Shown here in pieces: positions 14,991 to 19,980 of a stretch of DNA of 64,000 bases. The position numbers and the translations under genes were made by a program. A model generated the notes under the pieces. It saw nothing but the letters and a program-made list of their open reading frames with translations. It was not told where the DNA came from and made no database searches. Positions within the stretch are counted from its first letter, which is position 1. Each line of letters opens with the position of its first letter. The stretch comes from Thioalkalivibrio paradoxus ARh 1 (GTDB lineage: Bacteria > Pseudomonadota > Gammaproteobacteria > Ectothiorhodospirales > Ectothiorhodospiraceae): the NCBI RefSeq assembly GCF_000227685.2, contig NZ_CP007029.1:3322501-3386500 (forward strand). Reading direction: 5' to 3'.

Positions 14991-15083
14991 GGCCGGCTCC
15001 CGCGATCGCAGCGCACGCCAACACGGGCGCGAGCAGCGCCGGAGACCCTGAACACCGGGGCCGGCGCAGCCCCCGCGGGCGGC

Positions 15084-15587
15084 TCAGAGCGGGTCCGGCC
15101 GAAGCACCGTCAGCGCATCGGCACCAGGAAAGTTCTTCCAGAGTTCGCCGACGGTCGTTTCGTGGCCAGGGAGAATCCGTTCCGGCGCCAGCATCGCCAG
15201 CGGCCCCAGCACGTACGCGCGGGTGAGGATCTCGGGATGCGGCAATGGCGGACTGGACGAGCGCAGATCCCCGAGCAGCAGCAGATCGGCGTCGATCGAT
15301 TTCGGCGCAAGCCGCAATTCGCCTGCAGCCCTCCCCAGTCGCCGCTCCATCGCCTTCAGCCTGGCCACCAGCGCCGCGGCGGTGAGCGAGGTATCGAAGC
15401 CGACACAGAGATTCCAGTAGTCGGGCCCGTCGTATCCGACCGCCGCGCTGGAACAGACGGGCGAGCGTTCGATCGGCCCGAATCGAACGGTCAACTCGTC
15501 CAGTGCGCGCCGCAGATGCGAAGCCGGAGCGACGTTGCTGCCGAGCCCGACGTAGGCGCGGCGGAGATCGGCGGGCGGCGCGGTCAA
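15084..15587 (-). CDS. folK: 2-amino-4-hydroxy-6-hydroxymethyldihydropteridine pyrophosphokinase
   Basis: 167 residues. It transfers pyrophosphate from ATP to hydroxymethyl-dihydropterin in folate synthesis. Family motifs are present in order: AYVGLGSNVAPASHLRRAL at the N-terminus, the APKSIDADLLLLGD signature (the usual RPLDIDLL-type motif), and PHPEILTRAYVLGPLAML. I take TTG 15587 as the start: it overlaps the folB stop in a TTGA and leaves the usual short N-terminus before the glycine-rich loop. The upstream open extension belongs to folB in another frame. It forms a two-gene folate unit with folB and converges with the HPF-type gene. Confidence 0.93.
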   Translation of the reverse strand: MTAPPADLRRAYVGLGSNVAPASHLRRALDELTVRFGPIERSPVCSSAAVGYDGPDYWNLCVGFDTSLTAAALVARLKAMERRLGRAAGELRLAPKSIDADLLLLGDLRSSSPPLPHPEILTRAYVLGPLAMLAPERILPGHETTVGELWKNFPGADALTVLRPDPL

Positions 15588-15937
15588 GGATGCCCGCGCT
15601 CGATCACGATGCCGACCTCGCGGGCACCCGCCACCGCCCCCGGCTTGCCCACGGTCAGGCGCACCGAATGCCCGCCGAAACGACGCAGCAGCGTTTCGGC
15701 GATCTCCTCGGCCAGGCCTTCGAGCAGCACATGAGGCTCGCGGCTGGCGATCGCGCGAATGCAATTGGCGACCGCCTCGTAGTCGACGGTATCGGCGATA
15801 TCGCCGGAGCGTGCAGCCACGCGGGTGTCGGCCCCCAGTTCGATATCGAAGCGGAGCCGCCGCCGCACCCGCTGCTCCCAGGGGTAGACGCCGATCACGG
15901 CCTCGACCTCGAGATCACGGAGATAGATATGGTCCAT
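15584..15937 (-). CDS. folB: Dihydroneopterin aldolase
   Basis: 117 residues, the normal FolB length. It converts dihydroneopterin to hydroxymethyl-dihydropterin and glycolaldehyde, the step before FolK. The catalytic region is recognisable: LEVEAVIGVYPWEQRVRR near the N-terminus (with the substrate-binding Glu), Tyr in ADTVDYEAVAN, and the active-site Lys in VRLTVGKPGAVAGAREVG. The next gene, folK, starts within its stop codon. The start codon ATG 15937 fits the family exactly (MDHIYLRDLEVEA). Confidence 0.95.
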   Translation of the reverse strand: MDHIYLRDLEVEAVIGVYPWEQRVRRRLRFDIELGADTRVAARSGDIADTVDYEAVANCIRAIASREPHVLLEGLAEEIAETLLRRFGGHSVRLTVGKPGAVAGAREVGIVIERGHP

Positions 15938-16253
15938 CGCGGCTCGCCTCCAGGCCTCGCCTTTTGAAGATGCGTCAATGCGCCGATTCGCCCCGGGCGG
16001 AGCGCGTCCGGCACCGGGGATTCCGATTACCCTTGCCGTCCCGATACAGGCGCGGCGGCAAACCGGTGCGCTATGATCCGGGCGCAGCCCGATCGGGGCA
16101 ACCCCGGTGCTCGGGGAGATGCACACCGGAGCCCCCGAGACTCTGGCTCTGGCGCACGATTCGCCTCGTGGCGAACCGACCATTTTCCGTCCGGTCCAAC
16201 GGGACTCGCCGGAGAGCCCGAAATGCCCGGGCGCCCACAGGGGAGCACATGCA
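15938..16253. other. Divergent folB / amidoligase upstream region with nested inverted repeats
   Basis: No gene is seen. A possible -10 (TATGAT, 16072-16077) points towards the amidoligase, giving a leader of about 170 bases. The leader contains CCGGTG (16103-16108), CTCGGGG (16109-16115), CACCGG (16123-16128) and CCCCGAG (16132-16138). These are two interleaved stems that cannot easily form together. Whether this is a regulatory RNA or GC-rich chance is open. Confidence 0.35.
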
Positions 16254-17249
16254 ATGATGACCGCCCGGTTCCGTGAACTGCCCTGGTCCGATGCGCCCGA
16301 CGGCCGTCCCCGGCGCATCGGCGTCGAACTCGAGATGGCGGGAATTCCGCTGGAAACCATGGCCGGGGTGGTTCGCGACGAGTTCGGTGGCCGTATCGAG
16401 ACCAGCGGTGCATTCCTGACCCGCGTTCGCGATACCGAGTACGGCACGTTCGAGATCGAGCTGGATTCCCTGATATTGAAGGATCGGGGCTACCGCGAGC
16501 ATTTGAAACGGCTCGGCATCGAGCTCGACGACCGGGACAGCGCGGCGCTGGAACGTTGGCTCGCCGGCGCGGCGGGCCGCATCGTGCCGCACGAGATCGT
16601 CGCACCGCCGGTGCCCTTGGCTGCCCTCGGGCGCATCGACCGGATGCGTTCCACCCTGCAGCGGCGGGGCGCGCGGGGAACCCAGGCGGCGCTGCTGTAC
16701 GCATTCGGCCTGCAGCTGAACATCGAGGTGCACAGCCTCGAAGCCAGCTGGATCACGTCGATCATCCGGGCGTTCGTGCTGCTGTACGAGGCCCTGGTGC
16801 AGGCCGGGGACATCGATCTCGCCCGCCGCCTGTCGCCGTACATCCGACCCTTCCCGGGTGGGTACGTGCGCCAGGTGCTGCAGCCCGGATACGCCCCCGA
16901 CATCGCCGGCTTGATCGACGACTATCTGCAACACAACCCAACGCGCAACCGGCCGCTGGACCTGCTCCCGCTGTTCGCCGAGATCGATCCGGATCGGGTG
17001 ATGGCGGCGCCGGTGGAGCGGTCGCTGGTCAAACCGCGCCCGGCGCTGCACTACCGGCTGCCCAACTGCGAGATCGACGACCCGCAGTGGAACCTTGCGC
17101 GGCCGTTCAACGGCTGGGCCGAGGTGGAACACCTGGCGGCCGACCCCGACCGTCTCGAGGCGGCGGCGGCCGAATACCTGCGCCGGCCTGCCCAGGCGCT
17201 CGGCCAACTCACCGACGAATGGGTCCAGCGTATCCGTGACTGGTTCTGA
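16254..17249 (+). CDS. Putative amidoligase (COOH-NH2 ligase-like family)
   Basis: A 331-residue protein of the putative amidoligase family, related to the glutamate-cysteine ligase/glutamine synthetase fold. Visible features are acidic metal-ligand-like clusters RRIGVELEMAG (about residues 21-30) and EYGTFEIELDS (about 62-72), the helical region LQLNIEVHSLEASWITSIIR, and a C-terminal segment rich in Arg and Asp. The family is predicted to form amide bonds using ATP; the substrate is unknown. The start is supported by AGGGGAG eight bases upstream of the ATG at 16254 (the next codon is also ATG). Its end overlaps the following hydrolase gene by 14 bases, so the two are coupled and probably make and break, or make and edit, the same amide. 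Confidence 0.8.
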   Translation: MMTARFRELPWSDAPDGRPRRIGVELEMAGIPLETMAGVVRDEFGGRIETSGAFLTRVRDTEYGTFEIELDSLILKDRGYREHLKRLGIELDDRDSAALERWLAGAAGRIVPHEIVAPPVPLAALGRIDRMRSTLQRRGARGTQAALLYAFGLQLNIEVHSLEASWITSIIRAFVLLYEALVQAGDIDLARRLSPYIRPFPGGYVRQVLQPGYAPDIAGLIDDYLQHNPTRNRPLDLLPLFAEIDPDRVMAAPVERSLVKPRPALHYRLPNCEIDDPQWNLARPFNGWAEVEHLAADPDRLEAAAAEYLRRPAQALGQLTDEWVQRIRDWF

Positions 17250-18099
17250 ACCGGATCCCCGCGCACCGCGATCGCAGCGATCCGCACGCGCACCGCGCCC
17301 CGTGGTGGCCGTGACGGGGCCGGACCGGGGCGGCTGGCCTGCATGGTTCTTCACCGCCTGGGCGGTGCGCCGTGCCGGCGGACGCCCGCTGAGAATCCGG
17401 CCGGCAAGGCCGCACCACGACCGCCATTTCGATGCGCTGATCGTTGGTGGCGGTGCCGACGTGGATCCGGCGTTGTACGCGCAAGCCGACGGACCCGGCC
17501 CCAGCGAGATCCAGGCGGCCGAACGGCGTTGGGCCCAGCGCCTGATCGGGTACGTGTTCTACCCGCTGCTGTGGCTGCTGCGGCGCGGGTTCCAGTCGCA
17601 TGGCGGCCGCCTGGATACGGAACGGGACCAGGTGGAGAAGGCGCTGATCCAGCGGGCGCTGGACGAGCGCCGACCGATCCTCGGCATCTGCCGGGGCATG
17701 CAGCTGGTCAATGTCGTCCGCGGCGGCTCGCTGCACCGGGATCTCGGCGGGTTCTACACGGAAACCCCGCAGGCGCGCAGCCTGCTGCCGGTGAAACGGG
17801 TGGATCTGGAGCCCGGCTCGCTTCTGGCTGCGGTGCTGGGCAGCGAAACCGTTCAGGTAAATGCCCTCCACAACCACGCGGTCGCGGAACTGGGGCAGCA
17901 TCTGCGCGTGTGCGGCCGGGAACCCACCGGGGTCATCCAGGCGATCGAGGCCAGCGATCGCTGGTGCATTGGGGTCCAGTGGCATCCCGAATACCTTCCG
18001 CAAAAGGCGGTCCAGCAGCGCCTGTTCAGCGCGCTGGTCCGGTCGGCGGCCGCTGAACCCGGGGCACGCGATCCGGCGGATCAGGCGCCAGCGGGATAA
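17236..18099 (+). CDS. Class-I glutamine amidotransferase-like hydrolase (peptidase C26 / PuuD-like)
   Basis: 287 residues from GTG 17236. Catalytic Cys in [13 protein letters not shown] (about residue 152), and the His-Glu pair in [10 protein letters not shown] near the end. This is the triad of gamma-glutamyl hydrolases and PuuD, which hydrolyse gamma-glutamyl amides. Unusually for this family, a strongly hydrophobic insertion ([17 protein letters not shown], about residues 103-119) lies between the nucleophile and the N-terminal strands and could bind a membrane or a lipid substrate. The gene overlaps the amidoligase by 14 bases and ends 19 bases inside the convergent msrA. Partnership with the amidoligase is the best clue to function. 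Confidence 0.85.
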
Positions 18100-18725
18100 C
18101 CGATGCCGAGCCCGCCCAGCCCGCAGTAGCCGCCGGGGTTCTTCTCCAGGTACTGCTGGTGATAGTCCTCGGCGAAATAGAAGTCGTTCAGCGCCACGAT
18201 CTCGGTGGTGATCGGCCCCTGTCCGACGCGCCGCAACGCCGCCTCGAAGCGCTGGCGGCTCGCCTCGGCCAACGGCCGATGGGCCGAGTCGTTCAGGTAG
18301 ATGCCCGAACGGTACTGGGTGCCGACATCGTTGCCCTGGCGCATGCCCTGCGTCGGATCGTGCCCCTCCCAGAACACCTTCAGCAGGGCCTCCAGGTCAA
18401 TCTGCTCCGGGTCGTACACCACGCGCACGAGTTCGTTGTGGCCGGTCAACCCCGAACAGACTTCCCGATAGGTCGGATTCGGCGTGTAGCCGCCCCCGTA
18501 TCCCACCGCGGTGGTGAACACCCCGGGCTGGCTCCAGAACAGGCGCTCGGCACCCCAGAAGCAGCCCATGCCGAAATGGACGATCGCCAACCGGTCGGGA
18601 TAGGGCGGCGCCAGCGGCGCCCCGAGTACTGCGTGGCGGCCGGAGACCGGCATTGGGTCGGCACGCCCAGGCAACGCCTCGGAGGCATCGGGCATGCGGA
18701 TCCTGCGTGTCGCGCCAAAGAACAT
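18081..18725 (-). CDS. msrA: Peptide-methionine (S)-S-oxide reductase MsrA
   Basis: 214 residues. It reduces methionine-S-sulfoxide in proteins. The catalytic cysteine is in [10 protein letters not shown] (about residue 55), followed by the family blocks [32 protein letters not shown] and [12 protein letters not shown] further cysteine in PGGYCGLGG near the C-terminus can serve as resolving residue. About 40 residues precede the core, perhaps an over-long start; ATG 18725 has only a modest GGGG ribosome-binding site. It converges with the amidohydrolase gene, overlapping it by 19 bases. Confidence 0.93.
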
Positions 18726-18942
18726 GATCAACCCCCGAGCTGCTGTCCTGGAGACGCCGGACCGATCGGACGGGGCCTGGCGCAATCTCGCGCCACTGCC
18801 CTGCCTCTTACCAATCCCCAGGCCCGGGAGCGTCTCCATCGAACGCGTCGATGGTATCCCGTATCCGAGCGGATGAGGCGAATCGGCCGTTACCTTCGGC
18901 CCTTTGTGTGGCCAGGCGAGGCTGCGGTTCCCCGGGAATGCC

Positions 18943-19980
18943 TCAGTGGGCTTCGCCGCGCGCCGTCTGCGGCTCTGCGTCGTCCTCCGGCATACCGGCG
19001 CGGGCGCAGTCGCGGGCGAGACTGCGCACCCCAGCGACGAGATCCTCGGCTGCACCATCGCGCAGGCGCGCCCGGAGATGCTCGATCAGATCGCCCTGAC
19101 GCGTCTGGAGCTCGCGGGCCAGCGACATCAGGCCTGCGCGTTCGTCCTGCTGGCGCGCCTTCGCGAGTCCCGGGGAATCGAACGGGAGCGTCAGCGACAT
19201 CTCGATCAGCTTGCGCATGCGTGCGGCGCCGGCCTCTTCCGACGCCTCGGCCAGCTCCCTTCCGAACACCTGCAGGTCGCGGATCTCGCCAAGCAGATCC
19301 TGCAGCACCTTGAGCGAGGTCACCGACTCCTCTGCCTGGGGGAAGACGCCGGTGAGCGGCTCCAGCAGATAGCGCAGGCGCTTGCCGCTGATCCGTGCCG
19401 CGTGCAGCGGACCCTCGTCGAAATCGCGCTCGAGATGGGCGCAGCGCAGCGAAAACTCCCCAGCCATCTCCAGCAGCATCCCGGCGGTCACTTCGGCAAA
19501 GCTGTGCCCGGGATCCGCGTAGCGCGCCTTCAGGCGCGCGTGCAGCGGCTTGTGAACGAGACGGAACCGGTCCGCGAGCGTGGCCCGCAGCGCCTCGTAC
19601 TCGGCGGCGAGCCGATGCTGCAGCCTTTGCTCCAGCCAGTCGAAACCCGGGCGCTGGTGCGGCCGGGGATCCGCGCAGCGCTGGTGCAGGCGCTCCAGCT
19701 GCACTTCGGTATCGCGCGCCGCACCGGTCGCGTCGACCACGTCCTTCAACCGCCGGCGCAGCTTCGGCGTGACGGCATCGATCAGATAGGGCCGGTAGGC
19801 CTTCTCGATACTGCGCGCCCGGCGTACCGCGACCCGGAACTCGTGTACCGCCTCGGGATCGTCGAGCTTGTCGAGCAGCGAATCGGCGATGGCCAGGCGC
19901 TTGCGCATCAGCAGCCGCGCGACCCGGGCCGCGGGCCTGCGCAGGTGCTGGGACTTGATGGTCAGGATCTTGGCTACCAT
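18943..19980 (-). CDS. CHAD domain protein
   Basis: 345 residues, almost entirely a CHAD domain: conserved histidines and basic residues in [21 protein letters not shown] (about residues 43-63) and [17 protein letters not shown] (about 205-221), with the long alpha-helical arrangement expected. CHAD domains bind inorganic polyphosphate and are often found with CYTH phosphatases or at polyphosphate granules. No ppk, ppx or CYTH gene lies in this window, so the link is family knowledge only. It is the second-last gene of a long leftward set (34 bases after the acyltransferase). Confidence 0.9.

Follow-up and report, generated by a model that had tools for sequence, protein, structure and literature searches.

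A conserved pair of overlapping genes, encoding a predicted amide-forming ligase and a hydrolase of the gamma-glutamyl hydrolase type, was analyzed in a 64,000-nucleotide stretch of DNA (the window; C1:3322501-3386500 of its genome, for which the closest named relatives are Thioalkalivibrio). Our preferred reading, to which we assign a probability of about 0.42, is that the pair forms a module for writing and erasing gamma-glutamyl (or similar) amides, like AtdA1/AtdA2. With ATP, the ligase would couple an amine to a carboxylate, for which the gamma-carboxyl group of glutamate is the likeliest candidate, and the hydrolase, a gamma-glutamyl hydrolase with a Cys-His-Glu triad, would take the ligated group off again or reset it. 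In the long form of the hydrolase, which is the form encoded in the window, a short basic-flanked hydrophobic helix would hold the enzyme at the membrane surface and, given this proposed location, the amine or amide would probably be associated with the membrane. The coupling of the two genes is supported as a conserved feature; ATP use, gamma-glutamyl chemistry and membrane binding are properties that we infer for the pair. Together, the gene pairing, the division of the hydrolases into two types and the signature of membrane binding provide a testable handle on what may be a membrane amine or a wall precursor that carries a gamma-glutamyl group.

The ligase gene (P0001, 16254..17249, + strand) begins with ATG and encodes a 331-residue Amidoligase_2 (PF12224) protein, a predicted carboxylate-amine ligase of the glutamine synthetase fold. 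It is followed by the hydrolase gene (P0002, 17236..18099, + strand), which begins with GTG and encodes a 287-residue gamma-glutamyl-hydrolase-like protein of the Peptidase_C26 family (PF07722). As the initial annotation had reported, the two genes have 14 bases in common (17236..17249, + strand), which makes translational coupling of ligase and hydrolase possible, and relatives such as L061, L066, L067 and L069 may share this offset. The Pfam-typed flanks consist of FolB (dihydroneopterin aldolase; 15584..15937, - strand; PF02152, E = 1.1e-28) and the adjacent HPPK/FolK gene upstream, both divergent from the pair, and a methionine sulfoxide reductase (MsrA) gene downstream, also on the opposite strand. 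FolB recurs in the vicinity of the ligase across Thioalkalivibrio loci and is at most a candidate member of the ligase-hydrolase module. A search of positions 15000-19000 with Rfam at gathering thresholds returned no RNA element. A role as a defense system was considered and rejected, as neither protein has a PADLOC match.

Identification of the first gene product as an amidoligase is borne out by a full-length match to PF12224 far above the cut-off (E = 3e-59, 201.3 bits, cut-off 22, positions 2-243 of 245) and by intact motifs, and we saw no difference that would exclude it from the family. Two motifs that we took from the alignment, R..G.E.E and H.RLP, occur in every one of the 92 ligases, and residues R20, G23, E25, E27, D71, E114, N156 and H266 are invariant in an alignment of 88 sequences. 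The AlphaFold2 model of the ligase has a mean pLDDT of 91.9. Plain Foldseek returned nothing under E = 0.001 for this model; its matches were weak, starting at E = 0.016 and led by glutamate-cysteine ligase and glutamine synthetases. When the Foldseek candidates were re-examined with VIA-align, the top Z was 12.5 (rmsd 3.6 over 214 residues) with the glutamine synthetase 5dm3_C, and all 50 listed rows were of glutamine synthetase type (Z 11.3-12.5), including GmaS and 1-naphthylamine glutamine synthetase. Since plain Foldseek is weak, the glutamine synthetase fold is assigned from VIA-align and family membership. The ligase is predicted to be an ATP-dependent former of amide bonds. A sequence search of solved structures with the ligase gave no match, nor did any NCBIfam model match it; PHROG assigned it to no family and tblastn (E = 1e-5) against 50,697 phage records found no match. 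The window ligase belongs to a subfamily distinct from a prophage-like one, represented by L014 and L044, whose members have high PF12224 scores and no match to the ligase profile. Elsewhere in the family, an Amidoligase_2 domain forms the C-terminus of a 1054-residue protein with SAP and ResIII/helicase domains (L170:3125-6289, + strand).

The hydrolase is assigned to Peptidase_C26 (PF07722, E = 3.4e-42, 145.1 bits, cut-off 20.5) and also matches GATase (PF00117) at E = 2.1e-13. Among the 24 NCBIfam models that it matches, mostly of the class-I GATase fold, the best is PuuD; because its score against the PuuD equivalog NF008471 is 78.3 bits and does not reach the cut-off of 266, we describe the protein as working like PuuD and not as being PuuD. 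The catalytic triad read earlier from the Cys (ILGICRG) and His-Glu (QWHPE) motifs is intact, comprising Cys152 (in GICRG; codon 17689..17691, + strand) and His250 and Glu252 (His250-Pro-Glu252; codons 17983..17991, + strand), and the alignment, examined for loss of active-site residues, shows all three invariant in 48 sequences. Both motifs occur in 70 of 71 hydrolases, the exception (L074) being cut by a contig end, and in the set of 92 pairs used below each is found in 92 of 92, the minor departures being GVCRG in L154, QFHPE in L046 and AICRG in L132. The hydrolase model (mean pLDDT 82.7) is closest to lin1909 (Z 26.5), PuuD (26.1) and SpuA (25.3), within a range of 24.6-26.5 for the closest folds, followed by the glutaminase domains of CTP, GMP and ADC synthases at Z 20.7 and below and gamma-glutamyl hydrolase 1l9x at 18.7. 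A profile search agrees, with E values of 3e-45 to 5e-30 for lin1909, PuuD and SpuA and of 3e-11 and above for GMP synthases. By structure model and sequence profile alike, therefore, the closest relatives of the hydrolase are not glutaminase subunits; lin1909 is itself uncharacterized.

The initial annotation had proposed a neighborhood survey in Chromatiales and had named a failure of the two genes to co-occur in related genomes as a result that would count against a pair. In a wider survey of public genomes, 72 of 79 named loci have the hydrolase directly 3' of the ligase. The named loci come from the 80 top entries of a longer list ordered by similarity to the query (of the 72, 71 were identified by protein search, with the addition of L117, which is cut by a contig end). 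An order that recurs this often is not due to chance. The paired loci carry labels of eight phyla, namely Pseudomonadota (53), Thermodesulfobacteriota (6), Balneolota (6), Bdellovibrionota (2), Myxococcota (2) and one each of Acidobacteriota, Thermomicrobiota and Cyanobacteriota, and these labels may err because many loci are metagenome bins. Among the named loci, the hydrolase was not detected in L108, L109 and L121 (all Halieaceae), L118, L134 and L136, and the contig of L102, which stops 46 bases past the ligase, is not assessable. With the genome of the window included each time, the ligase itself occurs in 13 of 20 sampled relatives, 43/47 genomes of the order, 17/274 from the class and 24/398 from the phylum, and is thus common in the order and sporadic beyond it; it was found in none of 14 control genomes. 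Adjacency among loci that match the ligase profile is 27/29 for the order, 15/16 for the class and 20/22 for the phylum, again counting the window each time, with no neighboring hydrolase in L021, L029, L059, L157 and L158. Eleven plasmid records also carry the ligase. For the seven whose contexts were examined, the hydrolase adjoins it on plasmids of Dinoroseobacter shibae (PF07722, E = 1.3e-46), Qingshengfaniella and Rhodobacteraceae SC52, where it is annotated as a type 1 glutamine amidotransferase, and four (Azospirillum, Microvirga, Indioceanicola and Rhodovastum) have no adjacent hydrolase by annotation. One 12,500-base Bdellovibrionales contig (L094) is its own perfect reverse complement and contains the pair twice, which is probably an assembly artefact.

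The unusual hydrophobic insertion first noted near residues 103-119 of the hydrolase is real and conserved. In the window protein it spans residues ~100-120 (17533..17595, + strand), with basic residues on either side of a hydrophobic core, and sits after the GGG.D loop and before the elbow of the catalytic Cys; these residues are modeled as a helix with a block pLDDT of 74-76, the preceding stretch falling below 55. Alignment of 92 hydrolases, including that of the window, separates 42 long proteins that have the insertion from 50 short proteins that lack it. This set of 92 pairs, used for type counts and trees, omits 11 of the 71 named pairs: ten were removed by hand because rows that were kept are nearly identical or related to them (L061, L062, L064, L068, L069, L072, L073, L101, L120 and L129), and L074 was removed as truncated; L117 is also unused. 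All 42 long hydrolases have a hydrophobic core of ~13 residues with 2-7 flanking Lys/Arg, 38 have no acidic residue in the segment and 36 have a core proline. The named long types comprise Gammaproteobacteria (22), Balneolota (6), Thermodesulfobacteriota (5), Bdellovibrionota (2), Myxococcota (2), Acidobacteriota (1) and Thermomicrobiota (1), seven labeled phyla in all. The ligase tree (SH-aLRT 94, not starred) and the hydrolase tree (98) each need no more than one change between long and short, and the same holds for a hydrolase tree built after the insertion columns were taken out (95), the trees being unrooted, bootstrap-free products of a quick method, with long branches meeting in the ligase tree. 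Shuffled long/short labels require ~30 changes, a contrast that near-copies inflate. Two Desulfobulbaceae loci (L066 and L070) fall within an eight-row ligase group (support 100) that also contains the window and named Thioalkalivibrio, a nesting that suggests transfer between phyla. The pattern of a hydrophobic segment with basic flanks, which a monotopic membrane protein would be expected to have, is present at the sequence level in 42 of 42 long hydrolases, and these may act at the membrane through this helix. Since 50 of the 92 hydrolases have no such helix, membrane attachment would not be essential to the chemistry.

Some short hydrolases may be linked to the membrane in another way. The gene immediately 3' of the hydrolase encodes a small VTT-domain (DedA-like) membrane protein of ~142 residues in 13 of the 50 short loci and in none of the 42 long ones (Fisher p = 0.00017, relatedness ignored). 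The count includes L052 and L127, which have identical ligases and are seemingly one organism; the L055 copy has just 75 residues, and the VTT gene of L133 is 2.2 kb distant. Eight changes are required to explain VTT presence on the ligase tree, so this gene comes and goes. Two of the proteins were matched to the Pfam VTT_dom (E = 2e-15 and 1e-14), and for two tested against NCBIfam the only matches are UptA undecaprenyl-phosphate transporter models, far below the cut-offs. Taken together, the insertion and the VTT gene, which occur in different halves of the family, would both point to the membrane. Apart from VTT, no widely conserved neighbor of the pair was seen among the clustered neighbors, 19 of which were typed by Pfam and the others compared by clustering alone. 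A general conserved third gene was accordingly rejected, the typed neighbors being mostly unrelated and including GlnE, MetH, Cpn60, GH65, polyphosphate kinase and ribonucleotide reductase.

Combinations of a ligase with a protein of the GATase fold are known from several systems. PuuA/PuuD joins a glutamine-synthetase-type ligase to a GATase-like hydrolase; the window hydrolase shares the fold, the triad and a VN-LH motif with PuuD and SpuA, and differs from them in its extra basic-flanked hydrophobic helix at residues 100-120. Its partner is an Amidoligase_2 protein, presumably unlike the glutamine-synthetase-family PuuA that serves PuuD. The peptidoglycan amidotransferase MurT-GatD is similar, in the descriptions available, in combining a ligase with a co-transcribed GATase-fold protein, but MurT resembles the Mur ligases and GatD is not known to be a C26 protein. 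A characterized parallel to our preferred reading is AtdA1/AtdA2, where, in the available portion of the source, a glutamine-synthetase-like ligase of gamma-glutamylanilide formation is adjacent to a GATase-like hydrolase that reverses gamma-glutamylation, with NpaA2 of the 1-naphthylamine system NpaA1/NpaA2 assumed by the authors to act alike (PMC11335346). Those ligases belong to the glutamine synthetase family and their clusters contain dioxygenase genes, whereas none were seen at the window pair.

Phage relatives provide a further comparison. In the available text on phiEco32, LUZ24 and PSA-HP1, an amidoligase is found beside a GATase and a gamma-glutamyl-acting enzyme (PMC5498523, PMC3890496), the second of these sources tabulating the cassette. 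As far as these texts go, the cassettes differ from the window pair in that GGACT and a GATase, of class II where typed, take the place of C26, in the presence of an extra amidoligase and an ATP-grasp protein, and in a ligase of another subfamily. The portions available call such genes peptidoglycan-modification genes (PMC5498523), propose a cell-wall or cell-surface change against superinfection (PMC10580990, PMC11318856) or propose instead a role in nitrogen metabolism (PMC10945688); papers cite Iyer et al. 2009, in the passages available, as the source for these amidoligases. A block of Amidoligase_2, DUF5049, class-II GATase (PF13522) and GGACT (PF06094) is present at L164:3175-6045 and L165:3365-6190, with domains typed in L164. 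The two ligases are 97% identical, one genome belonging to the same family as that of the window and the other to the same class. Because genes beside the L165 block match phage families, one of them a virion structural protein, we call the block prophage-like. Class-II GATase, GGACT and ATP-grasp are absent among the Pfam-typed flanks, which cover FolB, HPPK and MsrA in the window and 19 neighbors at loci of relatives.

The description of the pair as uncharacterized fits its biochemistry as far as the open-licence PMC text covered goes, in which no demonstrated reaction of any Amidoligase_2 protein was seen; it does not hold for the protein families, the annotation names, the phage cassette and the general idea of pairing, which are already known. 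The long/short split, the basic-flanked helix and the VTT association were not seen in the open-licence PMC text covered, in which the insertion was not itself a search target.

That one enzyme conjugates and the other trims, as first suggested, fits the nearest solved folds of the hydrolase (lin1909, PuuD and SpuA), and we favor writing and erasing because the hydrolase is nearer to PuuD/SpuA than to glutaminase subunits; the GGACT gamma-glutamyl cyclotransferase beside the prophage-like ligase relative also argues for it. A serious alternative, less likely in our judgment, is that the pair is a two-subunit glutamine amidotransferase. The C26 protein would then hydrolyze glutamine and channel ammonia to the amidoligase, which would convert a carboxylate of the substrate (perhaps lipid- or wall-linked) to an amide, by analogy with MurT-GatD. 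The tight one-to-one coupling of genes that often overlap and the class-I GATase fold with its intact triad are consistent with such an enzyme, and the long/short character changes once on both trees, as a complex would predict. In phage and prophage-like relatives, moreover, this ligase family is accompanied by an unrelated GATase of class II, a type that typically donates ammonia, as if ammonia were the shared need, which counts against writing and erasing and, with the close coupling, keeps the amidotransferase in contention. Set against it are the PuuD/SpuA-like model and profile of the hydrolase, the persistence of ligases without a neighboring GATase and the presence of gamma-glutamyl cyclotransferase in the phage cassettes as well. 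Ligases without a neighboring hydrolase also weigh against a write/erase module, as does the lack of any step between writer and eraser in a two-gene unit, which would risk a futile cycle unless regulated.

More specific proposals concern what such a module would act on. We consider it unlikely, in its full form, that gamma-glutamyl groups are written and erased at the membrane surface on an amine of a membrane lipid or lipid-linked wall precursor, by an anchored form that arose once and spread across phyla and by unanchored versions with a DedA-like partner. Were this so, the long hydrolase would be the first of the class-I GATase fold at the membrane, as we know of none there so far. More generally, a pair working at the membrane would extend the gamma-glutamyl hydrolase family to the editing of lipids or of the wall and help to account for phages that carry relatives of the ligase. 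Quite unlikely, in our estimate, is the specific editing of a lipid-linked cell-wall precursor at the membrane surface, in which gamma-glutamyl-type bonds would be made and cut on peptidoglycan units and the DedA-like protein would serve the short type. The hydrophobic insertion of the long hydrolases, the restriction of adjoining VTT genes to short loci and the UptA matches of two VTT proteins, far below cut-off as they are, are in keeping with this proposal, as is the interpretation of phage amidoligase cassettes as peptidoglycan modification in the available part of PMC5498523. However, no conserved wall gene was found beside the pair in the sample of neighbors, VTT presence takes eight changes on the ligase tree, and in the portion of PMC10127716 available only one DedA subfamily comprises undecaprenyl-phosphate flippases, the others probably not doing so and being thought to move other lipids. 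A link to folate or one-carbon metabolism, with the pair adding and trimming gamma-glutamyl groups on a pterin or folate, appears highly improbable. It draws on the divergent folB and folK genes that lie upstream of the pair in the window and elsewhere in Thioalkalivibrio, a diverged folB upstream of the pair in D. shibae and MetH downstream in five loci. Folate gamma-glutamyl hydrolase, a member of the C26 family (structure 1l9x, Z 18.7), adds to this side. Yet the MetH loci come from one ligase clade of eight rows and the Thioalkalivibrio loci from one genus, so that few independent events are represented; chance repeats are expected among the hundreds of neighbors examined, and a search of the loci found no FolB, FolK or MetH in most.

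A role in compatible-solute metabolism was also considered, as many named loci bear the names of soda-lake or saline organisms, in a named sample biased to relatives of the query, and a BCCT-transporter cluster is present in the L099, L103, L120, L130 and L131 loci (Pfam-typed in L120 and L130). It was not supported, ectoine synthase being present in 4 of the 17 genomes with an amidoligase and in 40 of all 274. Cobalamin-dependent methionine synthase (MetH) lies downstream of the pair in L049, L089, L095, L100 and L116 (Pfam-typed in L100), which are five of the eight rows of their ligase clade. On the D. shibae plasmid pDSHI02 (L172:2207-4351) the diverged folB (PF02152, E = 4.7e-9) is located 62 bases upstream of the pair and in line with it. 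In Wenzhouxiangella and a relative (L076, L078, L080, L081, L083 and L084), a GlnE-type glutamine-synthetase adenylyltransferase is encoded 3' of the hydrolase, as typed by Pfam in L084 and L078.
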